Translations under genes and position numbers: made by a program
The notes under the pieces: model-generated
Seen by the model: the letters and a program-made list of their open reading frames with translations, nothing else
The model's database searches: none
Told to the model about the DNA's origin: nothing
Part shown: positions 42,801 to 64,000 of the stretch, one piece after another
Position numbering within the stretch: the first letter of the stretch is position 1
Layout: every line of letters starts with the position of its first letter
Source: Pseudomonas sp. Irchel s3f7
Lineage (GTDB): Bacteria > Pseudomonadota > Gammaproteobacteria > Pseudomonadales > Pseudomonadaceae
NCBI RefSeq assembly: GCF_900187615.1
Contig: NZ_FYDO01000004.1
Coordinates: forward strand, 62,001 to 126,000
Direction: 5' to 3'
Length of the DNA stretch: 64,000 nt

Positions 42801-44264
42801 CAGCATGCCGTCCGGGGCCGCTTCGATGATCCCGCGATACCAGGCCTCGGTCGCACGCAAGGCCGACTGCTGGGTTTCGAGCGCCTTGGCCTGTTCTTCC
42901 AGTTGCAGCGCCTGTTCCGCCATTTCATTGGCCTGGCGACGGGTTTCTGCCAACAGCGTCTTGACCGCCTGGTTACGCTCCAGAATCGCCATCGCGGCAG
43001 CCAGGCGTGGCGTGGCCTCATGCAACAGCTGTAATTCGCGCTCGCCCAACGGCTCCAGACCGGCCAGTTCGAGTACGCCCAGCAGCCGCTCGCCGCGCAC
43101 GATGGGTTGCAGCAGCAAACAACTCGCTGTCATCTCGCCAAGCGGCGAGTGCAAACGCCATTGATGCTCCGGCAGCGCCTGAAACTGACGTGGCTGACGA
43201 TCCACCGCGCACTGCCCCAACAGACCATCGCCGAACAGGACTTGTGCCTCAGGCGGTCGCTCGGCATCGGTCGCATAACGGCCCATCAGCGAAAGCGTGC
43301 CGGCGTCCTCGTTCGCGCTGTAAAGCACCCCTTGGCAGATTCCGTGCAGGCCGGCCATGCATTGCAGAAACACCTGCGCCAACTCGGCGGGCGTTTCAGC
43401 CTGTTGCAGATCAACCTGCAACTGGGCGGTATGCGACTTGATCCAGCGCTGGTGCTCCAGCTGTTGGGACTCGCTCTGCAGTTTGGCGATGGCCCGTGCC
43501 AGGTCGCCCGTTTCGTTATTCATGTCGGTGTGAGGGATCGGCTGATCCAGCTGCCCGGCGGCCAATTGGTCCACGGCCACCCGCACCCGGTTGAGCGGAT
43601 TGCGTATCGATTGGCTGACCAGCCAGGCCAGCAGCAGCGCCAGCGACAGGCCTCCGAACAACAATATGTAGGTCAGCAGGGTGCTGCGTTCGGCATAGTC
43701 GGCAATGTCCTTGGCCGTGTCGCGAATCGAGGCTTCCTTGATCTGGGCGATCGCGTACAAAAGGGTGTCGGCCTGCTGAGCCAGTTGCTGGAACTCACTG
43801 CTATTGAGCAGCACCAACGCCTGACTCTGCTGGCCCTGATCGATCAATTGAAAGGCGTGATCGCCATGGCGCTGCAACTGTTGCAGCAACAGGTCGAACT
43901 CGGCGAGACGTGCCAGATTCTCCGCACGCCGCAGGGTCACTTTGGCCTGGGCCAGCGCGAGCTGCAGCCGATTCTGGATGTCACGCAACTGCTGCAGGGA
44001 TTCGACGCGGATCGATGCGCTGTCGGTGCCTACCGCACGCTGCAGTGCTTGCATCATATGGGGCAGTTGAACCCGCGCTTCATGCAAGTACTCCATGCCC
44101 ACCAGTTCCTGCAGGTAGAGTTTCTGCATGTCCTGCTCCAGCGAATGCTGGGTCCGCAGGCTTTGTACACCGAGCACCAGCACCAACAGCAGTAGCGCGG
44201 AAAACCCCAGAATCAGTTTGTGCAGAAGCGCAAGGCGCTCAAGCAGGGTGCGCAATCCGGCCAT
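39867..44264 (-). CDS. Hybrid sensor histidine kinase (HAMP-GAF-PAS-PAS-HK-REC-REC-HPt)
   Basis: The 1465-residue inner-membrane protein starts with a membrane helix (about 15-36), a periplasmic four-helix bundle, a second helix (about 190-212) and a HAMP domain. A GAF domain (about 290-430), a coiled coil, and two PAS domains (about 465-590 and 595-720) follow. The kinase H-box SHEIRTPMN has its His near 742. REC1 has [10 protein letters not shown] (Asp near 1034), REC2 has VLMDCQMPV (Asp near 1181), and the HPt domain has [11 protein letters not shown] (His near 1330). It is a complete internal phosphorelay. An HD-GYP response regulator gene lies 57 bp upstream in the same direction and is the likely partner. 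Confidence 0.93.
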
Positions 44265-44321
44265 GGCCTGTCCTCGTGATCCTGATAAAAATACGGGTGA
44301 AGGGAGTGGAAAGTACCGGGT

Positions 44322-45479
44322 TCAAGGCGTCTGGCCGCTACGTTCCAGGGCGGCCTGTTTGGCTGCCATGTCCTGATTGGTGTCGGCGAAACGCTCGGCA
44401 ATGGCCTGGAACTGTTCAACGCAGGCCAGGAAAGCGTCGCAGATGTCCGGATCAAAGTGGCTGCCTCGCCCCTGCCGAATAATCTCGACGGCCTGCTCGT
44501 GGGGCATTCCGGATTTATAGACCCGACGGCTGATCAGCGCGTCATAGACATCGGCCACCGCCATCAACCGGGCGCTGATGGGAATATCGTCAGCCGCCAG
44601 CCCCTGCGGGTACCCGCTGCCGTCCCATTTCTCCTGGTGACTGTAGGCAATCTCCTTGGCCAGAACGAGGAAGTCGACGCGAATGCCGAGCGCATCCTCG
44701 GCATGCTGGATGGCGTCACGCCCCAACGTTGTATGAGTCTTCATGATCTCGAACTCTTCCTCGGTGAAGCGTCCTGGCTTGAGGAGGATATGGTCGGGAA
44801 TGCCGATCTTGCCGATGTCGTGCAGCGGCGCCGACTTGAAGAGCAGCTCGATGGTCTCCTCGCTGAGGAAGGGACTGAAACGCGGATGATCGCGCAGATG
44901 CTCGGCCAGCACCTTGATGTAATGCTGAGTCCGGCGGATATGGTTGCCGGTTTCGTTATCGCGCGTCTCGGCCAGTGAAGCCATGGCCTGGATCGCCACG
45001 TCCTGGATCGCAGTCACTTCACGGGTCCGGCGCTCGACTTCTTTTTCCAGATAGTCGTTGTGATCGCGCAGGAAGTCCTTCGCCGCCTTGAGTTTGAGTT
45101 GGGTATCCACCCGCGCCAGAACCAGCGCCGGTCTGATGGGTTTGGTGATGTAGTCGACGGCCCCGAGCTCCAGGCCATGGATCTCATCTTCGGTTCCGGC
45201 CATGGCCGTCAGAAAGATGATCGGAATATCACAGGTGCGCGGGTCGCGCTTGAGCCGCTCTGCCACTTCATGGCCGGACATTCCGGGCATCATGATGTCG
45301 AGCAGGATCAGGTCCGGTAGCGTATCGCCTTGCAATACCCGCAAAGCCTTTTCGCCACTATTGGCGGCCTTGACCCGGTATTTATCCTTGAGCAGATCGG
45401 TCATCAGCATCAGGTTATCGGGCGTGTCATCGACCACCAGGAGGGTAGGCGCACTGTAACGACTCTGTTCGACACTCAT
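44322..45479 (-). CDS. HD-GYP response regulator (c-di-GMP phosphodiesterase type)
   Basis: The 385-residue protein has an N-terminal receiver with phospho-acceptor Asp61 (LLDIMMPGMSG) and a C-terminal HD-GYP domain with His220-Asp221 (LHDIGK), His249 and GYP at 289-291. The paired histidines before the GYP segment read His281-Gln282 instead of His-His, so one expected metal ligand is replaced. It precedes the hybrid kinase gene by 57 bp on the same strand, forming a two-component pair. ATG 45479 is chosen; 45509 is also possible. The C-terminal half is a close paralogue of the gene at the left edge. Control of c-di-GMP would affect Alg44, but that link is inference. Confidence 0.9.
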   Translation of the reverse strand: MSVEQSRYSAPTLLVVDDTPDNLMLMTDLLKDKYRVKAANSGEKALRVLQGDTLPDLILLDIMMPGMSGHEVAERLKRDPRTCDIPIIFLTAMAGTEDEIHGLELGAVDYITKPIRPALVLARVDTQLKLKAAKDFLRDHNDYLEKEVERRTREVTAIQDVAIQAMASLAETRDNETGNHIRRTQHYIKVLAEHLRDHPRFSPFLSEETIELLFKSAPLHDIGKIGIPDHILLKPGRFTEEEFEIMKTHTTLGRDAIQHAEDALGIRVDFLVLAKEIAYSHQEKWDGSGYPQGLAADDIPISARLMAVADVYDALISRRVYKSGMPHEQAVEIIRQGRGSHFDPDICDAFLACVEQFQAIAERFADTNQDMAAKQAALERSGQTP

Positions 45480-45611
45480 GGCCGGCGGCTCCCTGTCAGA
45501 TATCGGCATCCCAAGGCGACATTTTCACCCCGGCGAAACAGAGTTTAGCTGCCATACTTGCGTATCGCCTACCCGCGTAGCACATGATTCAGGCAATCAA
45601 TCGCTTGACGA

Positions 45612-46102: not shown

Positions 46103-47377
46103 ATGAGCGTCTCGCTGCCCGAACTCGATGCCGCCCTGCCCGGCCTGGCCTGCAAGATCCGCGTGCTGGACGCCCTGGCCTGGCCGGTTGGGGTCGAGGA
46201 AGACTTCCTGGAACATTGGCGCGGCGGCAAGGCACGATTACCCCGCGTCGAGCTGCGCCCGCGCGATCACAGTGCCGGGATCGTCGCCCTGGAAGATTTC
46301 GCTGGCCGTTGCGATGTGCAGCACCCCGCCGGGCATCACCTGGCCATGACGGCGCGCAGCTATGCCACGGCCGGACGGATGCTGGGCGCCATTGGCACCC
46401 CCGCGTTCACAGAATATTCGTCAGCGTTGTATCGGCGCCCGGATTTTGAGTATCCGCGCCTGAAACTGACCATGGTGGACGCGGCCCGATTTTTCCTCGA
46501 TACCACCGATGCGTTGCTCGGCGGCACCCGAATTCCGCCGAGCGAAGCGGATATCCCGGCCGAGGCCTTCGCCGCCTGGATGCAACCGGAACTGGACCAG
46601 TTCTTTGGTCCGGGTCGAATTACCGTCGCACTCGATCCCACCCTGGCGGCCAAGGCGATCGCCGGTTCAAGCCGCATCCGCCTGCGCGCCAGCGCGATGT
46701 TCTCGGAACTGGACAAGAACCAGTTATTGCAACACGAAGCCTTCGTGCATGTGGCAACGGCACAAAATGGTGCACGCCAACCCAACCTCAAAAGCCTGGG
46801 CCTGGGGGCGCCCCGCACGACCCAGACTCAAGAGGGCATCGCGACCCTCGCCGAACTGTTCACCGGCAGCATGGACATCAACCGCCTGCGGCGCCTGGCC
46901 CTGCGCGTACTTGGGGTTCAGCAGGCGCTGGACGGCGCCGATTTCATTCAGGTGTTCGAAGGATTTGTCGCGGCCGGTCAGTCGCAAGAGGAGTCCTTTC
47001 GCTCGACCCAGCGGATTTTCCGCGGCGCCGACCTGCGTGGTGGATCGGCGTTTACCAAGGATGCCGCGTACCTGACCGGTTTGCTCGGCGTCCACACCCT
47101 GCTGCGCATTGCGATCCGTGATAATCGACCGGAACTGGTCAGCCATCTGTTTGCGGGACGCATCAGCCTGGGGGACACCTTGCGACTGGCGCCACTGTTC
47201 GACTCCGGCTGGCTCCAGGGACCGATTCACGTTCCGGCCTGGGCCAGCGATTTACGTCGGCTCGCCGCCAACCTGGCGTTCTCTGCCTTTATTACCCGGA
47301 TCCAGCTGGATGTACTCGATCTGGACGTGTTCATGGCCTTCGCCGACGAACACGAAGACGACGCCAGTGCCCTGTGA
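46103..47377 (+). CDS. DUF1704/MATCAP-type metallopeptidase
   Basis: The 424-residue protein belongs to DUF1704, the family also annotated flavohemoglobin expression-modulating QEGLA motif protein. The unusual zinc motif HExxxH is His211-Glu212-x3-His216 (HEAFVH), and TQEG near Glu244 gives the third ligand; the family name QEGLA reads QEGIA here. The eukaryotic relatives MATCAP1 and MATCAP2 remove the C-terminal tyrosine of tubulin, but the bacterial substrate is unknown. There is no signal peptide. The ATG at 46103 follows GAGGAGATCTCC. Neighbours on both sides are on separate units. Confidence 0.85.
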   Translation: MSVSLPELDAALPGLACKIRVLDALAWPVGVEEDFLEHWRGGKARLPRVELRPRDHSAGIVALEDFAGRCDVQHPAGHHLAMTARSYATAGRMLGAIGTPAFTEYSSALYRRPDFEYPRLKLTMVDAARFFLDTTDALLGGTRIPPSEADIPAEAFAAWMQPELDQFFGPGRITVALDPTLAAKAIAGSSRIRLRASAMFSELDKNQLLQHEAFVHVATAQNGARQPNLKSLGLGAPRTTQTQEGIATLAELFTGSMDINRLRRLALRVLGVQQALDGADFIQVFEGFVAAGQSQEESFRSTQRIFRGADLRGGSAFTKDAAYLTGLLGVHTLLRIAIRDNRPELVSHLFAGRISLGDTLRLAPLFDSGWLQGPIHVPAWASDLRRLAANLAFSAFITRIQLDVLDLDVFMAFADEHEDDASAL

Positions 47378-51456: not shown

Positions 51457-53034
51457 ATGGCGGGCATCGATAAGGAACCATTGAACCCAGAATGGCCGCA
51501 TCAGAAGAGGAAGAGTTCTTCGTTTGCGGCCCGCCTGTTCGATCGAACCAGTGCAGCCAAGTTTTTCGGTTGGATGCTCCTGTTCTGCACCCTGGCGTTG
51601 ATCTGCGACAGCCTCGACCCCGAGCTCCTCGACCCAACCAATCAGAAGTTCATCCTGCTGGTCGGCGGGCTCGGTGCCTGGCGCTACGCCAATGCAGTGA
51701 TGCACTACGTGCGCGGCATGTATTTCCTGCACTGGAAGTTTCCACTCATGCGACGGGCCGTGGAGCGAATGGGCGACTCCGCCCTGCCCTCACACCTGTT
51801 CATGGTGGTGACCAGCTTCCGTATACCGACCCATACCACTTACCGGGTCTATCAAGCGTTGTTTCAGGAGGTGCAACGCCTGCCGGTGCCCTGCACGGTG
51901 ATCGCTTCAATCGTCGAGAAGGCCGACGAGGACTTCATCAAGCAGATTTTGCGCCGTGAAGTGCGAGACCTCAGTAGCATCCGTCTGGTGGTGGTGCGCG
52001 CCCGCGGTACTGGCAAGCGCCATGGCCTGGCCCACGCCTTCCGTGCCCTCTCGCGACAAATGCCGCTGGACGATGCCGTCGTCGGAGTGGTCGATGGGGA
52101 CACGATGATGCTGCCCGGTTGCGTGGGGAACGCGGTGAAGTTCTTCGCCTACCTGCCCAGCGTCGGTGGCATCACCACCAACGAATTCTGCGAAGTGGAA
52201 GGCGGCAAACTGGTACGCGAATGGCATTCGCTGCGCTTCGTCCAGCGACACATCAACATGTGCTCGATGTCACTGTCGCGGCGAGTGCTGACCATGACCG
52301 GACGGCTATCGTTTTTCCGCGCCCGCGTGATGATCGATCCGGGCTTTATCCGTGACGTCGAATCCGACTTCCTCGACCACTGGCGGCTCGGCCGCTTCCA
52401 GTTCCTCACCGGCGATGACAAATCCTCCTGGTTCAGCCTGATGCGCGCGGGCTGGGACACCTTCTATGTACCCGACAGCAACACCGTGACGGTGGAGCAT
52501 CCGCCAGACAGCAACTTCTTCCGCGCGTCGCGCCAGCTGATGTTCCGATGGTACGGCAATTCGCTGCGACAAAACTTTCGTACCACCAAGCTGTTGGGCT
52601 TGCGTCAGTTGGGAGTGTTCACCATGTATGTGCTCTACGACCAACGCATTGCCATGTGGACATCGCTACTCGGGCTGGCTGCCTCAGTCATCGCCGGGCT
52701 GGTACTCGGTATGCAGTTTTTTATCGCCTACCTGTTCTGGGTACTGCTGACCCGTACCCTGGCGACGCTGCTGTTCAGCTTCACACAGCACCCGGTCGAT
52801 CCGCTCTATCCGCTGGTGCTCTATTACAACCAGATCGTCGGCTCGCTGATGAAGGTCTATTCGCTGTTCCATCTCGACCAGCAAAGCTGGACGCGGCAAA
52901 AGACCACCCTCAGCTCCACCGGTTCGTCCTTTGATGTCGCCCTTAACCGCTGGTCCTCGAAAACCATGCTGGTTTCTGCGGTTTCGCTGTTCCTTGGCAC
53001 AGTCGTTCTCCTGCTTGAGATTACTCAACGTTAG
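51457..53034 (+). CDS. alg8: Alginate-type polymerase glycosyltransferase Alg8
   Basis: The 525-residue inner-membrane GT2 enzyme polymerises GDP-mannuronate to polymannuronate at the cytoplasmic face. Two N-terminal helices (about 37-55 and 65-82) precede the catalytic domain: DGD at residues 213-215, TGDD at 318-321 and QLMFRWYGN from 360, the processive-GT region. TTNEFCEVEGG and QRHINMCSM match Pseudomonas Alg8 closely. Three to four C-terminal helices follow. The protein carries about 25 extra N-terminal residues compared with P. aeruginosa Alg8. It starts the operon and needs Alg44 for activity. The start codon has no strong ribosome site. Confidence 0.93.
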   Translation: MAGIDKEPLNPEWPHQKRKSSSFAARLFDRTSAAKFFGWMLLFCTLALICDSLDPELLDPTNQKFILLVGGLGAWRYANAVMHYVRGMYFLHWKFPLMRRAVERMGDSALPSHLFMVVTSFRIPTHTTYRVYQALFQEVQRLPVPCTVIASIVEKADEDFIKQILRREVRDLSSIRLVVVRARGTGKRHGLAHAFRALSRQMPLDDAVVGVVDGDTMMLPGCVGNAVKFFAYLPSVGGITTNEFCEVEGGKLVREWHSLRFVQRHINMCSMSLSRRVLTMTGRLSFFRARVMIDPGFIRDVESDFLDHWRLGRFQFLTGDDKSSWFSLMRAGWDTFYVPDSNTVTVEHPPDSNFFRASRQLMFRWYGNSLRQNFRTTKLLGLRQLGVFTMYVLYDQRIAMWTSLLGLAASVIAGLVLGMQFFIAYLFWVLLTRTLATLLFSFTQHPVDPLYPLVLYYNQIVGSLMKVYSLFHLDQQSWTRQKTTLSSTGSSFDVALNRWSSKTMLVSAVSLFLGTVVLLLEITQR

Positions 53035-53052
53035 CCCCGAGGCCATCGTCCT

Positions 53053-54195
53053 ATGAGCATCGCCACCAGTCTGTCTGCGAACGTAGTCCATGAAGCCACC
53101 GACGAACGCCAGTTCGTGCGAATCAAGATCCCGGCCACGGTAATCTTGCAGAGCTGGGAGGGGCCGCTCGAATGCGAAATCCAGGATATCTCGCTGGGTG
53201 GCATCAGCCTGCTCTGCGGCAAAGAGCTGAAGATTGGCTCAATGTACTCCGCCAGCATTCGTCTGAATCTTTCGACGATCAATATCAACATTGACGCCAG
53301 GATTCGCGTGGTCTCCCAGCGCGCTGATGAAGTCGGCGCCGAGTTCATCGAGCTCGACGCGCAGAAGCGGGACATCCTGCGCTACATGATCGCCGCCTAT
53401 ATGTCAGGCGAGGTCGCCGACTTCAACGGTCTGTTCAACGTGATGCAACGGGAAAACTACATCAAGGAGAGAAAGAAGGTCACCAGCAGCTCGCGCACCG
53501 TCTTCGAACGCCTGCAGGCCATGCTCGGCAGCCTGCTGTTCCTTGCCCTCGGCCTGCTGGTGATGAGCCTGCTGGCATACAAAACCTACCTGTTCTTCTT
53601 CCGTGTCTCGGCCGCCCACGCACAGGTCAGCGCCGAAGCCTATCAGGTGAACATGCCGGAAAACGGCTACGTGAAGTTCATGGTCGGAGGCGATGCCGGT
53701 GAAGTGAAGGCTGGCGAACCAATCGCCACGGTGTCGACCCAACTGCTCACCAACTTCAACAGCCCTGCGGACCTGCAGGCGTTGGCCAGCTTGTCGCAGA
53801 GCGATCTGCAGACGCTGCTCGGACGTTCACTGATCGAGACGGTAATCGCCAGCCCCTGCGACTGCTACGTTTATTTTCCAGGACGCAAGCTGGATAGTTA
53901 CGCCTACAAGACTGACCCGCTGCTGCACCTGATACCCAAGGATCAACCCCTGGTAGTCAAGGCCAGCTTCCCCTTTGACAAGCTCAAAGACATCAACCGC
54001 ATCCAGCGCGTCAGCCTGCGCGTGTCCGGTATGCCCGGGGCGTTCGGTGGCAAGGTGGTGGGCTCCGCGGTGGATAGCGTCAACCAGATGCTGGTGCTGA
54101 GCATCCTGCCAGAGACCACGCTGCCACTGTCGGCGTACCAGCATCCGGTGGCGGTCGATGTGTACCTTGACCTGCCCTTCGACCCAGGTTTCTAG
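53053..54195 (+). CDS. alg44: c-di-GMP receptor Alg44
   Basis: The 380-residue protein has an N-terminal cytoplasmic PilZ domain with both c-di-GMP motifs intact: RxxxR at 19-23 and DxSxGG at 45-50. One membrane helix (about 160-185) follows, then a periplasmic membrane-fusion-like domain (MPENGYVKF, SPCDCYV). In P. aeruginosa Alg44 binds c-di-GMP and activates Alg8. The gene lies 18 bp after alg8 and 10 bp before algK. Retention of both PilZ motifs shows that polymerisation should still be controlled by c-di-GMP. Confidence 0.93.
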   Translation: MSIATSLSANVVHEATDERQFVRIKIPATVILQSWEGPLECEIQDISLGGISLLCGKELKIGSMYSASIRLNLSTININIDARIRVVSQRADEVGAEFIELDAQKRDILRYMIAAYMSGEVADFNGLFNVMQRENYIKERKKVTSSSRTVFERLQAMLGSLLFLALGLLVMSLLAYKTYLFFFRVSAAHAQVSAEAYQVNMPENGYVKFMVGGDAGEVKAGEPIATVSTQLLTNFNSPADLQALASLSQSDLQTLLGRSLIETVIASPCDCYVYFPGRKLDSYAYKTDPLLHLIPKDQPLVVKASFPFDKLKDINRIQRVSLRVSGMPGAFGGKVVGSAVDSVNQMLVLSILPETTLPLSAYQHPVAVDVYLDLPFDPGF

Positions 54196-54205
54196 GAGGC
54201 TGGTC

Positions 54206-55543
54206 ATGCGCTTGAAGAACGCCTCTGCCTCCCTGATCTACTTGACCCTGGCGCTATTGCCGGGGCTGCCGGTGGACGCCGCGAGTCTGCCGGAGATCCG
54301 CTACCGTCTGTTCAAGGACAGCCAGGCCGACGTCGAGGCCGATCTTCGTGAACTGGCGACCCGTGGCGACTCGGCATCGCAAATGCTGCTGGCAGACCGT
54401 CTCGCTGCTTCACCGGACGCAGGCCGCGTGCAAGAGGCCGTCGAACTGTATAAGCGTTCATTCGACGATGGCCTCGGGCAGCTCAACGCGCTGACGGGGC
54501 TGGCCCGATTGAGCGAACGCAACCCGCGGTACCGCAACCAGAACCAGGCGTTCTTCAAGCATGCCATCGGCCTCTATTCGCACGAGCGAGACTTCAACAC
54601 GCTGTCTTCGACACTGGAGGTCTTCCTGGCCTACCCGCAGGAGTTCCAGGGCGAGGAAGTGACGCGGCTGATCAACCTCTACGACCAGGCTTGCGTGGAG
54701 AACTGTTTCAGCTTGAGCTACCGTGCCGCGCTGGCGGAACTGCGCGGGCAGTACGCGCAGGCCGAAAGCTACTATCGCCGCGCCATGCTCGACGATGCCC
54801 GCGCGGTGGACCGTTACTATCGCTTCCTCGGCGAACGCCAGGAGGAAGTGTTCAGGGCCTATGCCAAGACTCTCGAAACCCGAATCCCGAACCTGCCTGT
54901 GGACGTGGTGCAGTCCATCGGCAACCACCTGAGCAGCCTCTCCGGCGAAAACGATCCCTCGGTGCTGCTCTGGCTCGACAACGCCATAGCCCGCGGTTCG
55001 GAGTCGGCATTGGTCACCAAGGCCAGCTACATGATGTCCTTCGCCGACAGCTACGGCTATGAGGACACCCTGGCCCTGATTGACCGCATCGAGGCCAGTC
55101 AGTCGCAGCAGGGCCGCGCTCTGCGCGCCTCCGCCTACATGGTGCGTAACTGGCGCATCCTCGATCCCCACAAAGCCTACGACATCATCCGCGGCCTGCT
55201 CGCCGAGGGGTACCAGAACGCCAACCTGAACCTCGGCGAACTCTACAGCATGGGCGGGCTCGATGAGGTCGACCAGCTCAAGGCCATCGAGACCTACGAA
55301 CGCCTCGCCGATCAAGGCTCGGCCTCAGCCTTCTATCGCATCGCCACCATCTACGGACGCGGGCGCGGCATATGCAACGACAAGATTCGCGCCTATGCCT
55401 ACGCAAAAATCGCCGTGGACTACGGCGAGCTCGGCGCGATCAAGTACCTGAATGAACTGCAAGCAGAGATCAGTCCGGCAGACATCAGCGCGGCCTTGCA
55501 GGCGCGGGTGAACATCATGAAACAGGTCAAGGTACAGCTATGA
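54206..55543 (+). CDS. algK: Periplasmic TPR/Sel1-repeat export protein AlgK-like, no lipobox
   Basis: The 445-residue protein has repeated Sel1/TPR helices along its length (for example GDSASQMLLADRLAASPDAG, and the C-terminal QGSASAFYRIATIYGRGRG). AlgK in P. aeruginosa is an outer-membrane lipoprotein that helps place AlgE and scaffolds export. Here the signal peptide ends in LPGLPVDAAS with no cysteine; the first cysteines are far inside (ACVENC). This would make it a soluble periplasmic protein. ATG 54206 follows AGGAGGC. It overlaps algE by 4 bp. Confidence 0.85.
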   Translation: MRLKNASASLIYLTLALLPGLPVDAASLPEIRYRLFKDSQADVEADLRELATRGDSASQMLLADRLAASPDAGRVQEAVELYKRSFDDGLGQLNALTGLARLSERNPRYRNQNQAFFKHAIGLYSHERDFNTLSSTLEVFLAYPQEFQGEEVTRLINLYDQACVENCFSLSYRAALAELRGQYAQAESYYRRAMLDDARAVDRYYRFLGERQEEVFRAYAKTLETRIPNLPVDVVQSIGNHLSSLSGENDPSVLLWLDNAIARGSESALVTKASYMMSFADSYGYEDTLALIDRIEASQSQQGRALRASAYMVRNWRILDPHKAYDIIRGLLAEGYQNANLNLGELYSMGGLDEVDQLKAIETYERLADQGSASAFYRIATIYGRGRGICNDKIRAYAYAKIAVDYGELGAIKYLNELQAEISPADISAALQARVNIMKQVKVQL

Positions 55544-56958
55544 CGAATGGACTCTCCAGCATCCTGTTTCTGTCGCTGCTGACTGGCAGTCTGAGTTCGG
55601 TACACGCCGCCGCCGAGGCGGACAACTCAGGCGCTGCGACTGGCGAATCCACTCGGGACGCCACCCAAATACCTCCCGCAGCGGGCACGGAAAACCTCGT
55701 CGTGCAGCAGAAACTCACCGTACAGGGTGGCTACGGACCGGATAACTCGACCCTCGGCGAGGATCGCAAGGGCTTCTACAGTCTGCGCTACGAGCCCTCG
55801 CTCACCTGGTACTCGCCGGATCGCCAGTTCCCCACATGGCAGGGTTTCGCACGCGCCTGGCTGAACTACGCCTCGGCGCAGACCACCTCGCCCCTCCAGG
55901 AGCCGAACGAGCAACAGCCCGAGTATTTCAGTTCCGAAATGCGCGAGTTCTACCTCAAGCGCAACCTGCTGGGCGGCGACCCGCGCTATTCGCTGAGCGT
56001 CGGCCGGCAGAAGTTCGCCGACCACTACGGCATTTGGTGGGACGATAGCATCGAAGCCCTGCGACTGGACTTCGTCGACACCTTCGCCACTGGCTTCGTA
56101 GCCGTGGCGCGCAAGTTCCATAACTACAACACCGACAACAACAGCCTGCGCGATAACGACCGTGACATCACCTACGGGATGGGCGAATACGCCCTGCGTT
56201 GGAGTGAAAGAAACTGGATCGGCACGCGACTGATGATCGAGCAGGACAGCTCGGGGGACGACCCGGACGATCGCAGTGATTTTCGCGGAGGCCGCCTCGG
56301 TCTGTTCGCCTACGGAGACAACTTGCGCGTCTCGCCGCTGTTCAGCGATTACCGCCTCGAACTGGCGGCGCTCAAGGGTCGTCTCGACCTCACCGACAGC
56401 GCTGGCGCAACCAGCAATGAACACACCCATGGCTGGGCGCTGATCGGCAACATCGGCAAACGATTCGATGAAACGCCCTGGAAGCCACGGCTTTCCCTGC
56501 GTGTCGGACTGACCGACAAGCCGTCCAACGAGAACGAAGGCTTCTACCTCAATAACATCCAGTCAGACCGCGTCACCAACAAGGAGACCTACACCAACGG
56601 CTTGCTCAGCTCTTTTCTCAGCGTCGACCTGCACAACCTGGCGTTCTACAGCGTCGCAGTGGAAACCCAGCCCAAGCCGCGAAACAGCTTCGACGTGCGA
56701 CTTTCCGACCTTTATCTGCGCGATGCCGACGGCGGCATCCCGATCAACGTCGCCGATGACCTGACCGCCACCGGCAGCAAGTCTCTCGGACAGATCCTCG
56801 ACACCAATTACTACTGGCAGATGCTCCCGATAAACCTGCACGGCCAACAGCTGCATCTCAACCTGCTGGCCAGTGCGGGGTATTTCTGGAGCGGGAATGC
56901 CGTCAAGGGCCTGGACGATGACTTCCAGGTCAGTCTGGGCGTGGTGCTGCGCTACTAA
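55540..56958 (+). CDS. algE: Alginate export porin AlgE
   Basis: The 472-residue protein has a signal peptide ending near SVHA and a beta-barrel of the alginate-export family: LRYEPSLTWYSPDR, then REFYLKRNLLGGDPRYSLSVGRQKF and a final FQVSLGVVLRY strand with a C-terminal aromatic residue for outer-membrane insertion. It forms the 18-strand outer-membrane channel for the polymer. The size is close to P. aeruginosa AlgE (about 490). The gene overlaps algK by 4 bp and is followed after 22 bp by algI, not algG as usual. Confidence 0.92.
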   Translation: MTNGLSSILFLSLLTGSLSSVHAAAEADNSGAATGESTRDATQIPPAAGTENLVVQQKLTVQGGYGPDNSTLGEDRKGFYSLRYEPSLTWYSPDRQFPTWQGFARAWLNYASAQTTSPLQEPNEQQPEYFSSEMREFYLKRNLLGGDPRYSLSVGRQKFADHYGIWWDDSIEALRLDFVDTFATGFVAVARKFHNYNTDNNSLRDNDRDITYGMGEYALRWSERNWIGTRLMIEQDSSGDDPDDRSDFRGGRLGLFAYGDNLRVSPLFSDYRLELAALKGRLDLTDSAGATSNEHTHGWALIGNIGKRFDETPWKPRLSLRVGLTDKPSNENEGFYLNNIQSDRVTNKETYTNGLLSSFLSVDLHNLAFYSVAVETQPKPRNSFDVRLSDLYLRDADGGIPINVADDLTATGSKSLGQILDTNYYWQMLPINLHGQQLHLNLLASAGYFWSGNAVKGLDDDFQVSLGVVLRY

Positions 56959-56980
56959 ACATCATGAGAGGAACACCAAC

Positions 56981-58408
56981 ATGGTCTTTACCTCGAACAT
57001 CTTCCTGTACCTGTTCCTGCCACTGTTTTTGCTGGTCTATTACCTGGCCAGAAACTCCTGGCGCAACTACGTGATAGTCGTCGCAAGCTACTGCTTCTAC
57101 GCGTGGTGGCGACCGGATTTCCTCCTGCTGTTCGTCGGCATCTCCTATTGGAATTATTGGTTCGGCCTGCGCATCAAGGCGCGGCTGGATGCCGACGACA
57201 AGTCCGGCGCCGAACGCCTGCTGTGGCTGGGTATCATCGGCAACCTGTGCACCCTGGGCTACTTCAAGTACGCCAACTTCGGCGTCGAAGTGATAGCTGC
57301 AGCCCTGGCGCCGCTGGGGATCAATACCTTCACGCTGGAAACCATCATCCTGCCGCTGGGTATCTCTTTCTACGTGTTCCACGCACTGAGCTACATCGTC
57401 GATATCTATCGCAAGGATGCCGAACCGACCAACCGCTTCGTTGACTTCGCTGCCTTCGTCGCTTTGTTTCCGCATCTGGTTGCCGGTCCGATCCTGCGTT
57501 ACAGCCTGCTGGCCCCGCAGTTGCGAGAACGCACCCACTCGCTGGAGCTGTTTTCCCTCGGTGTTTGCCGCTTCATGCTCGGTTTCGTCAAGAAGGTACT
57601 GATCGCTGACTCGCTGGCGCCGATGAACACCCTGTTCATGGCCGAGGGTTCGCCGCAGTTCATTGACGCCTGGTTTGGCGTGTTCGTTTCGCTGGTTCAA
57701 CTGTACTTTGACTTCTCCGGCTACAGCGACATGGCCATCGGCCTGGCGCTGATGATGGGCTTTCGCTTCGCCGAAAACTTCAACCAGCCGTTCCTGTGCA
57801 AAAGCCTCACCGAATTCTGGCGGCGTTGGCACCTGACCCTGGCCGACTTTCTACGCGACTACGTCTACCTGCCGCTTGTACGCTCGCGCAAGGTCGGCGG
57901 TGATACCGCACTGTTCATCACCATGCTGCTCTCCGGTTTCTGGCACGGCGCCAGCTTCGCCTTCATCTTCTTCGGCCTGTACTTCGCCGTGATCATGGTG
58001 CTGGAACGCCGCCTGGGCATCGCCACCAAGGTCAACACACCGTACAACTTCTGGCACAACATGCGCGCGCTGCTCTTGTTGCTGCTGTGCATGCCTCTGT
58101 TCATCACCGGCAATCTGAGGCACTCGCTGGAGATCTTCTCCGGCCTGTTTGGCCTCAACGGTCTGGGCAGCCTGGACATGTACTTCCTCGGCACCTCCAG
58201 CCTGAGCATGTCCTTCGTGCTGCTGGCGGTTGTCTGGCTGGTGGTTGCCGGGATGATCAACAACCGCTTCTACCTGCGCAACCAGGAGCCCTACTTCATG
58301 CAGAGCGTCAGCGGGTTGACTGCACTGATGCTCTGGGCCGGCTTCGGCATCTCGGTCACGCGGCTCGCCGCGAATTCCTTTTCCCCCTTCCTGTACTTCC
58401 AGTTCTGA
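56981..58408 (+). CDS. algI: Alginate O-acetyltransferase AlgI (MBOAT)
   Basis: The 475-residue inner-membrane MBOAT protein passes acetyl groups across the membrane for alginate O-acetylation. His322 in SGFWHGASF is at the same residue number as the essential histidine of P. aeruginosa AlgI, and a second conserved His is in EFWRRWHLTL (284). About eleven membrane helices occur. The block algI-algJ-algF follows algE directly, whereas in the usual operon it comes after algL. ATG 56981 follows AGAGGAAC. Confidence 0.95.
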   Translation: MVFTSNIFLYLFLPLFLLVYYLARNSWRNYVIVVASYCFYAWWRPDFLLLFVGISYWNYWFGLRIKARLDADDKSGAERLLWLGIIGNLCTLGYFKYANFGVEVIAAALAPLGINTFTLETIILPLGISFYVFHALSYIVDIYRKDAEPTNRFVDFAAFVALFPHLVAGPILRYSLLAPQLRERTHSLELFSLGVCRFMLGFVKKVLIADSLAPMNTLFMAEGSPQFIDAWFGVFVSLVQLYFDFSGYSDMAIGLALMMGFRFAENFNQPFLCKSLTEFWRRWHLTLADFLRDYVYLPLVRSRKVGGDTALFITMLLSGFWHGASFAFIFFGLYFAVIMVLERRLGIATKVNTPYNFWHNMRALLLLLLCMPLFITGNLRHSLEIFSGLFGLNGLGSLDMYFLGTSSLSMSFVLLAVVWLVVAGMINNRFYLRNQEPYFMQSVSGLTALMLWAGFGISVTRLAANSFSPFLYFQF

Positions 58409-58418
58409 GGAGATCGCC

Positions 58419-59522
58419 ATGTTCCCCGTCATGAAGAGCGCAAGCAAAGTCAATGGCATCGCTTTCTGCATCCTGCTCGCAGTGATGCTGGTGTACTCCA
58501 TTCCCAAGGTGGTGAGCTTCCTCAGGACGCAGCCCGATGCCCTCGCGCTGTTCCTTGACGGCCGCCTGCTGCGACAGCTGGAGATGACCTACGACCGCGA
58601 GTTCGTCCTTCGTGATACCGCCATCCGCACCTGGGCCGACCTTCAATACCTGGTCTTCGGCGAAGGCAGCAAGGGCGTGGTAATTGGCCGTAACGGTTGG
58701 CTGTTCACCAACGAGGAGTACATGATCCCCAATGACTATTCGCACGCAGTCGCCCAACATGTGCGGAACATCGCCGAGATCGAGGAGCAGCTACGCCAGC
58801 ACAACAAACGGCTGATCCTGATGCCGGTGCCGATGAAGCTCGACATCTATGCCGAGTACGCACAGCGGCGCTTCGATGCGCGCACCGCGGGTATCTATGA
58901 TGACTTCGTGGCGCGCCTCGCCGAGCAGAAAATCGAGACGGCACCGGTTCGTAGCGCGTTCCTCAGTGCCAAGGACAGCACGCAGCTGTTCCTGAAAACC
59001 GATACCCACTGGTCGCCCTATGGTGCCAACCTGGCGGCGCACGAAGTGGCGCGCCAGCATCCCGAACTGATTGGCAAGGCGCCCTACGCCACACAGCATG
59101 TGGCGCAAAAGGGCTATCACGGCGACCTCCTCAACTTCATCCAGGTCAGCGACTGGCTGGTCCCCTGGCCGTTGCTTGGCGACAACATCCCGGTGTTCGA
59201 AACCATAAGCCGCAACCAGTCGCTGGATGATGCCTTTCTGTTCGACGACCAGTCAGAGTCGATCATGCTGGTCGGCTCCAGCTACACCAAGATCGACGAC
59301 TGGAACTTCCCCGGTTTCCTCAAGGAGTCGCTACAGAATGACCTGCTTACCACCGCCGTGGAGGCTCGCGGGCCCTTCCAGGCGATGGACGACTTCCTTG
59401 CTGGAAAGCAACTGAGGAACGACAGCATCAAGACCGTTATCTGGGAGTTCCCTGTGCGCACCCTGCTGGCGCAGAAGCCCAGTTCCAATAGTTGGCAGGC
59501 CACCATGAACCAGTTTTTCTAG
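58419..59522 (+). CDS. algJ: Alginate O-acetyltransferase AlgJ
   Basis: The 367-residue periplasmic SGNH-like protein has an N-terminal anchor helix (about 11-30). The catalytic Asp195-Thr-His197 is in TDTHWSPYG, and the nucleophile serine in VGSSYT (287-288) is intact. AlgJ has acetylesterase activity and is needed for O-acetylation with AlgI and AlgF. It is 10 bp after algI. The homopolymer of 11 C lies in the gap to algF. Confidence 0.93.
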   Translation: MFPVMKSASKVNGIAFCILLAVMLVYSIPKVVSFLRTQPDALALFLDGRLLRQLEMTYDREFVLRDTAIRTWADLQYLVFGEGSKGVVIGRNGWLFTNEEYMIPNDYSHAVAQHVRNIAEIEEQLRQHNKRLILMPVPMKLDIYAEYAQRRFDARTAGIYDDFVARLAEQKIETAPVRSAFLSAKDSTQLFLKTDTHWSPYGANLAAHEVARQHPELIGKAPYATQHVAQKGYHGDLLNFIQVSDWLVPWPLLGDNIPVFETISRNQSLDDAFLFDDQSESIMLVGSSYTKIDDWNFPGFLKESLQNDLLTTAVEARGPFQAMDDFLAGKQLRNDSIKTVIWEFPVRTLLAQKPSSNSWQATMNQFF

Positions 59523-59536
59523 GCACGGCCTTTTCG

Positions 59537-59547
59537 CCCCCCCCCCC
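59537..59547 (+). repeat. Run of 11 cytosines before algF
   Basis: Eleven consecutive C lie between the algJ stop (59522) and the algF ribosome site. Long C-runs are prone to slipped-strand length change and to sequencing error. A change of length would alter only the spacing in the untranslated gap, not a reading frame. Confidence 0.9.
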
Positions 59548-59567
59548 GAAACATGGAGATGACGACG

Positions 59568-60209
59568 ATGAAAACCACGTTCCTTGGTAGCCTGCTCAGT
59601 TTGGTGCTGCTCGTCCCAAGCCCCGCCCATGCCGCCGACGGTAACGGTGGCCTCTATGCCAGCCCACCGCCGCCCGGTTCGGCCTTCGTGCGCGTGCTCA
59701 ACCTGGCCGGCGCCCCAGTGGACGTTCATCTGAAGGGCAAGAGCAAGGCCCAGAAAGTCAGCGGCGGCCACCTGGGCGGCTACCTCTACATCACCCCCGG
59801 CAGCCAACAGTTGACGGTGGACAAGACCAGTCTGGACCTTGGCCTGAAATCCGATTCGGCAACCACTGTGATCTACGACGGCAAGGCGCTGAAGCCCATC
59901 GTCGACACCTATAGCATGGACCCGACAAAAGCTTTGGTGGCGTTCTACAACCTTACCGAGAAGCCATTGGCGCTCAAGACCCTCGATGGCAAGCATGCCA
60001 TTGTCGACAACATCGCGCAGAACCAGATGGGTACGCGCCTGGTGAACGAGATCAAGATTGGCTTCGCCGCCTATAGCGGCGAGCAGAATGTAGCGAAGTT
60101 CGACGAGCAGTTTCTCAAGAAAGGCGGGTCCTACAGTTACGTGGCCATCGCTCAGGGCGGTCAGGTACGGACCCTGAGCCTGGCCAATTCGTTCGACTCT
60201 TTGCAGTGA
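59568..60209 (+). CDS. algF: Alginate O-acetylation protein AlgF
   Basis: The 213-residue periplasmic protein has a signal peptide (MKTTFLGSLLSLVLLVPSPAHA) and the AlgF pattern: GGLYASPPPPGSAFVRVLNLAGAPVDV, then a repeated beta domain with LVAFYNLTEKPLALKT. AlgF is an accessory protein that links AlgJ and AlgX in acetylation. ATG 59568 fits with GGAG at spacing 9; ATG 59553 is also in frame. In the usual operon it is the second last gene before algA, whereas here it is followed by algX. Confidence 0.93.
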   Translation: MKTTFLGSLLSLVLLVPSPAHAADGNGGLYASPPPPGSAFVRVLNLAGAPVDVHLKGKSKAQKVSGGHLGGYLYITPGSQQLTVDKTSLDLGLKSDSATTVIYDGKALKPIVDTYSMDPTKALVAFYNLTEKPLALKTLDGKHAIVDNIAQNQMGTRLVNEIKIGFAAYSGEQNVAKFDEQFLKKGGSYSYVAIAQGGQVRTLSLANSFDSLQ

Positions 60210-60250
60210 AGCGACATGCCCGCCCGCCAACCCGAAGCCTGCGGTGACCT

Positions 60251-61645
60251 ATGAAGCACACCTTCCGTACAGTCTGCACCTTACTGCTCGCCTGGATTGC
60301 CGTTGGCCTGCCGGCGAGCGCGCAGGAGAACTGCGACCTGCAGTGTCTGATTTGCCCCGAGCTACACGATCCGCAGCAGTACGCCGAAGGAATCATGAAG
60401 TCGATGAAGGAAGTGACTCCGGGCAAAGACAAGTGGCTGTTCCGCTCGGAAGTCGACCTCTCCAACGACTTTTTCATCCCCAAGGAAATGCAGCCCGAAT
60501 ATGCCCGGCTGATGGCGACCTTCGCCGCCAGGCAGATCAAGGTTGTGTTCGCCGTGCAGCCGACCCGCGGGCTGATGCACCGCGACAAGATTCTGCCAGA
60601 GCGCAGCTTCGGCTTTTCCTACCCCACCGCCTCGCGCAACCTGGAAAACTTCCTCGGCCAACTACGTGCTCCAGGTGCCCTGGTGCCGGACGCCATGGTG
60701 CTGGTGCGCAACCCGCCCAAGGAAGAGTATTTCTTTCGCCGCGATCACCACTGGACACCCTCCGGTGCCCAGGCCACGGCAAAGATCGTCGCCGCAGAAA
60801 TCAAGCGACAGCCCTTCTACGCCGGACTGGCCAAGAAGAGCTACCGCACCGAGGCCGGGATGATACTGCCCAAGGACGGTACCATGAGCCGGGCGCTGAA
60901 GAAGATCTGCGGCAACAACTACGGCTTCCAGTATGTCCGCGGCTTCCAGACCGTCCCCGCGGCCGACGATGCCAGCGCACTGTTCGAACAAGCCGCCGCC
61001 CCCGAAGTGATACTGGTCGGCACCAGCAATTCGGCAGCGCGCGACGACGAAATGAAGAACTACAACTTCGATGGCTACCTGAAAGAATTCCTCAACGTCG
61101 ACATCCTCAACTTCGCCCTGGCCGGTGCCGGCCAGGACGGTTCGCTGCTGCAATACCTGCAGTCCGACAGCTACAAGCCGGATGCGCCACCCAAGATGAT
61201 CATCTGGGAGCTGCCGGCCAGCTTCCACCTGGAGACGCCGCTGATGTACCGCCAACTGATCCCGGCGATCAACGGCGGCTGCGCCAAATCGCCGCAAGTG
61301 CTCACCAGTAACAAGCTCGAGCGTGCATCGCTGGTGCCCGGCCAGCGCATCGAACTGTTGAGTAATAGCGGCACACGGCGCCTGGCAATGACCGGAAAGT
61401 ACGGCTTCCTGGACATCAAGCTGTCGGACAAGAGCGTCAAGGACTTCTACATCATCACCTACTACGACAACGGCGCCCGCGATAAAGCCTGGTTCCGTCG
61501 CGAGGCTATTGTCGACGGTGGTCAGTTCTACCTGGAACTGAGCTCCGCCGCAGAGTTCAGCAACGCAAACCTGCTGTCGGTGTTCCTCGAACCGGTGCAG
61601 CCCCTGGACACGCCGATCTCGATGGATGTGAAACTATGTCTCTGA
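60251..61645 (+). CDS. algX: Alginate O-acetyltransferase AlgX
   Basis: The 464-residue periplasmic protein has a signal peptide, an SGNH hydrolase-like domain with the triad Asp165/His167 (DHHWTPSG) and Ser259 (VGTSNSA), and a C-terminal carbohydrate-binding module after about residue 345. AlgX transfers acetyl groups to the polymer and takes part in the export complex. Cysteines CDLQCLIC at the start probably form the usual disulfide. Its end overlaps algL by 10 bp. Confidence 0.93.
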   Translation: MKHTFRTVCTLLLAWIAVGLPASAQENCDLQCLICPELHDPQQYAEGIMKSMKEVTPGKDKWLFRSEVDLSNDFFIPKEMQPEYARLMATFAARQIKVVFAVQPTRGLMHRDKILPERSFGFSYPTASRNLENFLGQLRAPGALVPDAMVLVRNPPKEEYFFRRDHHWTPSGAQATAKIVAAEIKRQPFYAGLAKKSYRTEAGMILPKDGTMSRALKKICGNNYGFQYVRGFQTVPAADDASALFEQAAAPEVILVGTSNSAARDDEMKNYNFDGYLKEFLNVDILNFALAGAGQDGSLLQYLQSDSYKPDAPPKMIIWELPASFHLETPLMYRQLIPAINGGCAKSPQVLTSNKLERASLVPGQRIELLSNSGTRRLAMTGKYGFLDIKLSDKSVKDFYIITYYDNGARDKAWFRREAIVDGGQFYLELSSAAEFSNANLLSVFLEPVQPLDTPISMDVKLCL

Positions 61646-62763
61646 GATGCCTCCCCCTGCTCCTGCTCGCAGCGCTGCTACCAGTGACCCAACCCTCCAA
61701 CGCAACCGCAGGCGGCACCCGGTCGATCTGGAGCCTGCCGACGAGTGTCACGGCGCCCTCCGTGCTGCCCGACTATCACTCGCTGGTATGCCCCAAGCCG
61801 GTGATAGAGCCCTTCACTGGCGCCCTGCTGGTGGACAGCAAATACGACCAGAGCGACCCGACCAAGTCCACACTGGGCAAGGGCCAATCCCAGGAGTCCC
61901 AGCGTATCCACGACAGCGTGGCCAGCTATGGCAAGATGCTCAGCCTGTTCGCCGACTATTACGCCAAGGCGCAAGACCCGCCGCACGCCGCTATGGCTCT
62001 GGCGTGCATGGACCAATGGCTGGAGGCCTGGGCCGCCGCCGGAGCCCTGGAAAACCGCGAAGCGAACAAGACGGGTATCGCGGTGCGCAACTGGGCACTG
62101 GCGGCAATCGCCTCCAGCGTTCTCAAATTGCAAGCCCTTAGCGGCAACCAACTGCAACTCAGCGAGCGGCAGAAGCAGTGGCTGGACCGCCTGGCCGGCA
62201 TCATCATCGAAGAGTACGATCCGCGCCTCGCCCCGTCCTTCGGCTATTTCAACAACCACGACTACTGGGCCGCCTGGTCCATCGGCTCCACCGGCATGCT
62301 GCTCGGCAAGCAGAGCCGCATCGACTGGAGCGCCAAGGTGTTTCGCCGCGCCATGCAGCAGATCACCCCGTCGGTCGGTGGCGACTATGCCTATCTGCCC
62401 AATGAACTGGCGCGCGGGACGCTCGCCGCCAACTACACCCACTACGCTCTGGTACCGCTGACCCTCGTCGCCGAAACCCTGCGGCTCAATGGCGCCAGCG
62501 TCACCGCCGAAGACAGCCGCAAGCTCGACCTGCTCGCCAACTTCGCTGCCCGGATCGTGCTCGCCCCCAATGGCCTTCCGGAGTTGCAAGGGCAAAAGCA
62601 GCAGAAGGTGCCGCCGTACAAGATGGCATGGCTGGTCCCCTTCCTGAGCCACAACCCGCAGCACGTTTTGGCACGCCAGTTGTACGGCGCCGAACACGGC
62701 GATGTGGACGGCTACCGGCAGATCGGCGGACACATCAAGCCTTTCTACCCTAATGTCGAATAA
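61636..62763 (+). CDS. algL: Poly-mannuronate alginate lyase AlgL
   Basis: The 375-residue periplasmic PL5 lyase has a signal peptide (LLLLAALLPVTQPSNA) and the catalytic segment NNHDYWAAWS with His208, where relatives have NNHSYWAAWS. Further conserved residues are Arg260 in ELARGTLAANY and Tyr267/Tyr270 in NYTHYALVPL. AlgL clears polymer that is trapped in the periplasm. The overlap with algX shows co-translation. In the usual operon algL precedes algI; here it precedes algG. Confidence 0.93.
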   Translation: MSLRCLPLLLLAALLPVTQPSNATAGGTRSIWSLPTSVTAPSVLPDYHSLVCPKPVIEPFTGALLVDSKYDQSDPTKSTLGKGQSQESQRIHDSVASYGKMLSLFADYYAKAQDPPHAAMALACMDQWLEAWAAAGALENREANKTGIAVRNWALAAIASSVLKLQALSGNQLQLSERQKQWLDRLAGIIIEEYDPRLAPSFGYFNNHDYWAAWSIGSTGMLLGKQSRIDWSAKVFRRAMQQITPSVGGDYAYLPNELARGTLAANYTHYALVPLTLVAETLRLNGASVTAEDSRKLDLLANFAARIVLAPNGLPELQGQKQQKVPPYKMAWLVPFLSHNPQHVLARQLYGAEHGDVDGYRQIGGHIKPFYPNVE

Positions 62764-62783
62764 CCCAGGCCCAGGTGAAGCCC

Positions 62784-64000
62784 ATGCCCAGATCGCTCCC
62801 CCCATCCGCTGCCCATGCCCTGCTCTGCTTCCTGTGCTGCACACTGCTACCACTGGCACAGGCGCAGAGTCTTCTGCGCCACCAGCTCAGCGACGTACCG
62901 GCCACCGAGCAACAGCAGGAAATCGAGCGCGTGCTGCAGGCCGCCGACCAGGGCGTGGACGCTAATCAGGTGCGCGAGTCGCGCCCCGTCGGGCGCGCCT
63001 CGGTGAGCCTGAGCAGTCTGTTCTCCTCGCAGGAGGGCAGCTGGCCCTTCGAACCCTTCGTGCACAACGGTCTGTTTCGCGTCATCGCCAGCTACCAGAC
63101 AAATCACCCGCTGGTGGTGGTGGTACGCGGCGGCGGCATCGGTCTGGCGCAGTTGCACCAGGCACTCGGCGACGAGCGCGTGATGAGCCGGCACAACGAC
63201 GGCTACTTGCTCAGCTACCCACTGCTGATCGCCCCCGGTGCAGCACTCAACATCGTGGAGAGCACCCTCTACCTTCGCACCCAGTCCGGCACTGCACTGA
63301 TCAACCAAGGCGATCTGACCCTAAAGCACGCCACCCTGACCAGCTGGAGCGACGGCCAGCCTGCCGAAATCAAGCAGCCGTTCCGTCCCTTCGTCATGGC
63401 CTGGGCCGGCAGCCGCACCCGCATCATCGACTCCAGTCTCAGCCGCCTCGGCTACAACGCCCACCTTTCCCGCGGCCTGACGCTCGCGCGCAGCACCGAG
63501 CAAGCTCTCGGCCTGGCGCCGGCAATCCTGTTGATGAGCGGCAGTCGGATCAGCGAGCTGTCCAGCGGTGTCGAATTGCAGAAGGCCGAGGCGCGCATCG
63601 AAAACAATCGTTTCGACGACCTGCAACAATACGCCCTCGACCTGTTGGACAGTCGCGCCAGCCTGGTTGGCAATCATATCGCCACCGTGAAAAACCAGAG
63701 CGCCATTCGACTGCGCGGCACCAGCAGCGGCGTGGTGGAACGCAACGTGATACTCGGCGCTGGCAAAGCTGGTATTGAGGTGCTGGACCAGCATGGCGAA
63801 CTGGTGCTGCGACAAAACATGATCGGCGCTACGCAAAACGGCATCTTTCTTCGCCAGCTTGTCGATAAAAAGGACACCCCTCTACTGCTCGCGCAGAACT
63901 ACATCGCCAACACCGCCAGCAGCGGCATCGACGGCGAAGCGATCGGCACCGTCTATGTCATCGACAACCGCATCAGCACCACGCCGGAATACGCCATCAG
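62784..64000 (+). CDS. algG: AlgG-like mannuronan C5-epimerase homologue, 3' end outside window
   Basis: 405 codons are visible with no stop. The signal peptide (LLCFLCCTLLPLAQA) and the AlgG layout are clear: LLSYPLLIAPGAALNIV, then RPFVMAWAGSRTRIIDSSLSRLGY, then right-handed beta-helix repeats (SGVVERNVILGAGKAGIEV). In known AlgG enzymes the motif DPHD provides the catalytic His. Here the aligned site reads Asp286-Leu-Leu-Asp289, so the His is replaced by Leu. AlgG also has a structural role in export that does not need catalysis, so the protein may be a non-epimerising scaffold. ATG 62784 is 20 bp after algL. Confidence 0.82.
   Translation, partial: MPRSLPPSAAHALLCFLCCTLLPLAQAQSLLRHQLSDVPATEQQQEIERVLQAADQGVDANQVRESRPVGRASVSLSSLFSSQEGSWPFEPFVHNGLFRVIASYQTNHPLVVVVRGGGIGLAQLHQALGDERVMSRHNDGYLLSYPLLIAPGAALNIVESTLYLRTQSGTALINQGDLTLKHATLTSWSDGQPAEIKQPFRPFVMAWAGSRTRIIDSSLSRLGYNAHLSRGLTLARSTEQALGLAPAILLMSGSRISELSSGVELQKAEARIENNRFDDLQQYALDLLDSRASLVGNHIATVKNQSAIRLRGTSSGVVERNVILGAGKAGIEVLDQHGELVLRQNMIGATQNGIFLRQLVDKKDTPLLLAQNYIANTASSGIDGEAIGTVYVIDNRISTTPEYAI

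Follow-up and report, generated by a model that had tools for sequence, protein, structure and literature searches.

Pseudomonas sp. Irchel s3f7 carries, in a 64,000-nucleotide stretch of its 6.06-Mb genome of 68 contigs (the window; contig C52, positions 62001-126000), a second alginate-type gene cluster that very probably belongs to the epm family, an ancient paralogue of the alginate machinery, and that would make an O-acetylated polymannuronate distinct from ordinary alginate, with an AlgG-type protein that epimerises the chain little or not at all. Open reading frames (ORFs) together with Pfam and NCBIfam scans give a core of ten genes in the order alg8-44-K-E-I-J-F-X-L-G, all on the plus strand and extending from 51457 past the end of the window (Table 1), which is the content and order listed by the initial annotation. 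The K and G proteins are weakly recognised by NCBIfam (AlgK, 70 bits; AlgG, 57 bits, scanned to the window end; both cut-offs 700). An algA-type and an algD-type gene lie downstream of algG, convergent with the core genes, and the locus as a whole encodes a complete gene set for synthase-dependent polymer export along with its own supply of GDP-mannuronate.

Two alginate-type loci in one genome

Two MBOAT genes (PF03062) are present in the genome, one in the window locus and the other on contig C47, where tblastn with the window-locus proteins recovers a canonical alginate operon in the order algD-8-44-E-G-X-L-I-J-F-A. The K gene on C47 is partly visible as an ORF adjoining algE and has no tblastn match from the window-locus K. 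The initial annotation had proposed a second alginate-like polymer locus with strongly diverged proteins and had suggested a search for an algD-algA operon elsewhere in the genome; the operon on C47 and the identities between the two loci bear out both proposals. Identity to the canonical counterpart is 53% for Alg8, 42% for AlgI, 33% for AlgX, 32% for AlgL, 28% each for Alg44, AlgJ, and AlgF, 23% for AlgG, and 33% for AlgE, the last over a short stretch only, compared with 71% for AlgA and 74% for AlgD. The enzymes of GDP-mannuronate synthesis are conserved between the two loci, while the export and modification parts are divergent. An N-terminal extension that had been ascribed to Alg8 is a weak feature, with a predicted length of 525 amino acids (aa) versus 504 in the canonical copy of the same genome and about 510 in most collected sequences.

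Distribution and gene order

Among 149 genomes of the genus, including that of the window, a search with Alg8 (E <= 1e-20) found a match in 138, with a bimodal distribution of identities: 22 genomes (own included) hold a copy at 70-100%, at 70-79% in the 21 others, and the other matches listed are at <=55%. None of the 149 genomes has a best E-value lying between 3e-238 and about 1e-178. With 22 of the 149 genomes carrying the second system, ‘alginate’ gene counts and phenotypes may be confused between two polymers. Searches with an AlgX alignment matched 1 of 274 genomes in a sample of the class (E <= 1e-60), this being the genome of the window itself, and 17 of 293 in a sample of the order, seven of which (own included) scored at least 430 bits and are epm-like and ten of which scored 289-322 bits, like the canonical AlgX of the window genome (317 bits). 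When species genomes were scanned with the same alignment, the best 80 of 89 stretches encoding relatives yielded 79 distinct loci (hereafter the named loci), hosted mostly by Pseudomonas, including two P. alkylphenolica strains, and further by Marinobacter, Marinobacterium, Gilvimarinus, Shewanella, Porticoccus, Alcanivorax, metagenome-assembled genomes, and one record titled Pantoea.

Gene order was surveyed in 20 other loci fetched from the 21 other genus genomes of epm type, one genome (G076) being left out because of its partial Alg8 match. The complete order 8-44-K-E-I-J-F-X-L-G is present in 19 of these 20, and the remaining locus is cut by a contig end. Amongst the 79 named loci, which overlap with the fetched set (e.g., L035 and L113 are one genome), the complete order lies on a single strand in 67, G is inverted in six (Alcanivorax and kin), and six are partial. 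Its recurrence in most relatives marks the order as a trait of the family, with no rearrangement specific to the window genome. Although described as new, it is the usual arrangement in a group that already bears the name epm, and the suggested check for its retention in other species was positive. The two P. alkylphenolica strains (L067 and L068) have D-8-44-K-E-I-J-F-X-L-G, and each of their genomes contains one epm-type and one canonical-type Alg8 (E <= 1e-50). The local peculiarity of the window locus is the position of algA and algD, downstream and convergent. D or D-A is found upstream in 18 of the 20 fetched loci (absent upstream in L035 and L036), and a D or A gene immediately precedes alg8-44 in 71 of the 75 named loci where that pair is visible (neither in L113, L115, L117, and L136); given these absences in two overlapping sets, 2 of 20 and 4 of 75, the feature varies within the branch.

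Several genomes differ in their complement of loci. Only an epm-type Alg8 was found in G118, G001, and the genomes of L129 and L133, with no canonical-type Alg8 found there. Pseudomonas mangrovi (genome G711, locus L131) has two epm-type Alg8 proteins (76% and 72% identical to the window copy), a canonical Alg8 was not found, and its gene order runs J-F-X-L-G then D-A-8; based on this order and the two Alg8 copies, the cluster seems duplicated. The AlgG-type gene inverted at the cluster end in Alcanivorax and kin (L133-L135 and L137-L139) lacks the Tyr and Asp of the AlgG site in 6/6 and is followed, on the same inverted strand, by an algA-type gene.

Phylogeny of the core proteins

Separate branches for the two locus types, which had been suggested as a test for Alg8, Alg44, and AlgI, were recovered for each of five core proteins (quick IQ-TREE runs with SH-aLRT support, the Shimodaira-Hasegawa-like approximate likelihood ratio test). 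The Alg8 tree, which includes both copies from the window genome and 18 other genomes, splits 29 epm-type sequences from 22 canonical and three further copies with support of 100, and the epm sequences part from the others with support of 100 in the trees of Alg44 (29 vs 7), AlgI (28 vs 4), AlgX (28 vs 7), and AlgG (28 vs 7), the AlgX and AlgG trees carrying warnings of long branches and letter make-up. P. alkylphenolica L067 falls on the same branch as the window proteins in all five trees. By path length, the copies nearest to the window are those of G118, G148, and G069 in the Alg8 and AlgX trees; in the Alg44 and AlgI trees other epm-type Pseudomonas copies are nearest by path, though the highest identity is to G118.

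These branches bear on the possibility that the locus is a rearranged recent duplicate of the ordinary operon that makes the same alginate. Such an origin would account for the shared gene content and for the 71% and 74% identity of AlgA and AlgD to the canonical copies, but the other proteins are only 23-53% identical with K unmatched, the locus branches apart from the tested canonical copies, its order is shared with organisms named as several families, and the trees are incompatible with recent duplication. A duplicate of this kind is considered extremely improbable.

Conservation of active sites

The residues of the lyase site (N, H, R, Y, and K) are kept in 97/97 epm-type AlgL proteins, and the PilZ motif of Alg44 is kept in 96/96 proteins. 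The FW.RWH and WHG histidines of AlgI are likewise kept in 96/96, and the D, H, and S of both AlgX and AlgJ, given as site residues in PMC4148444, are kept in 97/97 copies of each. A first reading by eye, in which AlgL lacked its neutralising Arg, was rejected as the alignment shows both R and Y in 97/97. For AlgK, a strict lipobox pattern matches 6/97 epm-type proteins, all Alcanivorax-like and not including the window K, and misses 3/6 canonical-type proteins, while a loose pattern matches 27/97 and misses 2/6; as both patterns also miss canonical-type K, a non-lipoprotein nature of the epm-type AlgK is only suggested.

The kept residues are relevant to whether the polymer is built from another sugar, such as glucuronate or a neutral sugar, in place of mannuronate. 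The strong divergence of G, K, E, and 44 and the four named loci without D or A directly upstream would be compatible with a different sugar; on the other side stand the D- or A-type gene directly upstream in the other 71 loci that show alg8-44, the lyase catalytic residues kept in every one of the 97 proteins, and the 53% identity of Alg8 to its canonical counterpart, and a non-mannuronate polymer appears quite unlikely.

The AlgG-type protein

The DPHD motif is found in 7/7 canonical-type AlgG proteins and in 0/97 epm-type proteins (84 distinct sequences), with the window protein reading YALDLLD where the canonical has YGIDPHD. A profile comparison over 407 aligned columns (probability, 99.8) places DLLD opposite DPHD. 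The His column of the 97 epm-type proteins is occupied by R (35), Q (22), S (12), G (11), and H (6), with the rest others. According to PMC4444821, the His of DPHD is the likely base and Tyr314 coordinates the water in AlgG.

The predicted structure of the P. alkylphenolica homologue (mean predicted local distance difference test score, 86.6) has AlgG as its closest solved structures, with Z scores of 38 and root-mean-square deviations (rmsd) of 2.7-2.9 Å to 4ozy and 4nk6 (4ozy: Z 38.4; rmsd 2.7 Å over 384 residues) and a Foldseek E of 8e-17 to 4nk8. According to this model the AlgG fold is kept in the homologue, though a shared fold is not proof of a shared function. Based on the retained beta-helix scaffold and the loss of DPHD with its proposed base, the most likely role of the AlgG-type protein is to guide or shield the chain, and its C5-epimerising activity would be slight or nil. 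If AlgG naturally lacks the catalytic His, the export role of AlgG would be separable from epimerisation for study.

Sugar-supply genes and a third lineage

A third type of alginate locus, with the order D-8-44-K-E-G-X-L-A and no I-J-F, occurs in 3/149 genomes of the genus (L059, L060, and L061 in G058, G027, and G046, respectively). In its AlgX the His of D-x-H is replaced in 3/3 (N, Y, and N, respectively), and the Ser is lost in L060 and kept in L059 and L061. The missing I-J-F and the loss of AlgX site residues together read as a coherent loss of acetylation in this predicted locus type.

As many D and A genes are cut by the flank limit, trees for the supply genes were restricted to rows of at least 400 aa for AlgD (27 epm) and at least 440 aa for AlgA (16 epm). 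The algA of the window locus groups with the algA of the three I-J-F-less loci (support 95) and not with the epm algA, and it appears to be derived from a different alginate lineage. The sugar-supply genes are displaced, and perhaps borrowed.

Proposed function

The epm mechanism is read from the features above together with the published mechanism of alginate export, as set out in PMC4444821. AlgA and AlgD would supply GDP-mannuronate, which the Alg8-type enzyme would polymerise once cyclic di-GMP (c-di-GMP) binds the PilZ domain of the Alg44-type protein. On its way through the periplasm the chain would pass along K, X, and G before exiting via the E-type barrel, with O-acetylation by I, J, F, and X, while the L-type lyase would remove chains that go astray in the periplasm. 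In this scheme the AlgG-type protein would act as a guiding or protective scaffold and epimerise the chain little, if at all.

Several points weigh against this assignment. The product of the window locus is predicted from its genes, and the epm identity rests on citations, on what the abstract of the epm study reportedly states, and on the loci found in two further strains of P. alkylphenolica. The AlgA tree carries long-branch warnings, located elsewhere than the algA grouping, and the algD of the locus is nearest by path to two of the I-J-F-less loci at a fork without resolution in the AlgD tree. For AlgG, a His in the DPHD column is present in 6/97 epm-type proteins (four distinct sequences from four genomes), and its carriers include two of the genomes closest to the window copy in the Alg8 and AlgX trees, G118 and G069, which calls for caution in predicting the absence of epimerisation. 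The Tyr is kept in 86/97, the first Asp in 90/97, and the Arg at +28 in 63/97, such that some epimerase activity is possible.

Together with the predicted retention of the AlgG fold, these residues would favor a working C5-epimerase with its catalytic residue relocated or replaced, in which case the product would be ordinary alginate of mannuronate and guluronate. The residue proposed as base in PMC4444821, the DPHD histidine, is however replaced in 91/97 proteins, including those of P. alkylphenolica and the window, and a working epimerase is considered unlikely, if still a realistic prospect. An O-acetylated polymannuronate with little or no epimerisation is the preferred product. There is about an even chance of a broader scenario, in which the whole epm family secretes non-epimerised O-acetylated polymannuronate, AlgG being an export-only pseudo-epimerase, and the window locus is a mosaic that re-acquired supply genes from the third, acetylation-less lineage. 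A pseudo-epimerase in the export path would imply a non-epimerised family product and thus the capacity of a cell with both loci to make two polymers. Acetylated polymannuronate might be obtained from the locus as a natural source.

Locus coordinates and neighborhood

Table 1. Genes of the epm-type locus, with positions in the window unless another reference is given
Feature	Position	Strand	Evidence
alg8-type polymerase (GT2), epm branch	51457..53034	+	Pfam Glyco_tranf_2_3, identities, tree
alg44-type c-di-GMP receptor, PilZ motif RQFVR...DISLGG	53053..54195	+	Pfam PilZ; matches solved Alg44 PilZ 4xrn
algK-type TPR protein	54158..55543	+	NCBIfam AlgK, 70 bits (cut-off 700)
algE-type outer-membrane exporter	55540..56958	+	Pfam Alginate_exp
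algI-type MBOAT protein of acetyl transfer (chosen start = ATG)	56981..58408	+	Pfam MBOAT; FW.RWH + WHG His; tree
algJ-type SGNH protein	58419..59522	+	Pfam ALGX; 4o8v AlgJ E 1.5e-37
algF-type periplasmic acetylation protein	59553..60209	+	Pfam AlgF
algX-type terminal O-acetyltransferase, C-terminal CBM	60251..61645	+	Pfam ALGX + CBM_26; 4knc AlgX E 3.2e-71
algL-type PL5 mannuronate lyase	61636..62763	+	Pfam Alginate_lyase; 4ozv AlgL E 4.9e-35
algG-type beta-helix protein without DPHD	62775..64000, runs on to 64346 (= L003:13346)	+	Pfam beta-helix; NCBIfam AlgG
algA-type gene, outside window	L003:13463-14962 = window-equivalent 64463-65962	-	Pfam, identities, tree
algD-type gene, outside window	L003:15095-16405 = window-equivalent 66095-67405	-	Pfam, identities, tree

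The start of algK is more likely at about 54206, as inferred from a signal-like stretch. A scan for promoters and terminators 5' of alg8 gave a yield about equal to that of shuffled sequence. In 1-kb steps, guanine plus cytosine content ranges over 54-65% across the locus and does not contrast with the 57-63% just upstream. The left neighbor, an AraC gene, has an 83-84% identical counterpart in G021, with no window sequence found after that G021 gene, and the right-hand neighbor genes are matched in G005 and G007. On the minus strand at 39867-45509, about 6 kb upstream of alg8, are a 1465-aa protein that by eye resembles a hybrid sensor kinase and an HD-domain response regulator, by eye of the HD-GYP type. 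At 46103-47377, adjoining a TauD-family dioxygenase, there is a match (363 bits) to the MATCAP family (microtubule-associated tyrosine carboxypeptidase) in this bacterial host.

Comparison with known systems

A literature search on a second alginate gene cluster gave no paper matching three or more of its four terms. Pap (Pseudomonas acidic polysaccharide, strain F113) resembles the window locus in being a further acidic polysaccharide locus in Pseudomonas; unlike the window locus, it is described in PMC7716237 as Wzy-dependent-like and without c-di-GMP parts, and Pap was rejected as the identity of the locus on that description. Wzy-type polymerase, flippase, and tyrosine-kinase families were not found amongst the ten locus proteins in the Pfam and NCBIfam scans.

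The canonical alginate operon (D-8-44-K-E-G-X-L-I-J-F-A) shares its components with the window locus, as well as the site residues of Alg44, AlgI, AlgJ, AlgX, and AlgL, including the catalytic N, H, R, and Y of the PL5 lyase. It differs in gene order, in occupying a separate branch in all five core-gene trees, and in having an AlgG with DPHD, which the AlgG of the window locus lacks.

The epm study reportedly described 11 ORFs in one orientation, homologous to alginate genes and with an algD-type gene first, with relatives in a few Pseudomonas, Alcanivorax, and Marinobacter, and a product, a biofilm slime, said to be probably substituted polymannuronic acid. The reported gene number, host, and spread agree with the P. 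alkylphenolica loci and the survey of 79 loci. The epm of P. alkylphenolia (Lee et al. 2014, Appl Microbiol Biotechnol 98:4137) is cited as an alginate-like exopolysaccharide cluster in PMC5890197, and the references of PMC8745256 include the same epm paper. The two P. alkylphenolica strains share the core order with the window locus, and the window proteins are 43-78% identical to those of strain xwS2 (its AlgD partial); the difference is that all P. alkylphenolica genes run in one direction with D first, whereas D and A of the window locus are downstream and convergent. Judged from its genes, the window locus is most likely a new member of the epm kind with a displaced supply module. Neither the gene order nor the second locus type (epm, 2014) is new; the new details are the AlgG without the catalytic His and the supply genes that are displaced and perhaps borrowed.

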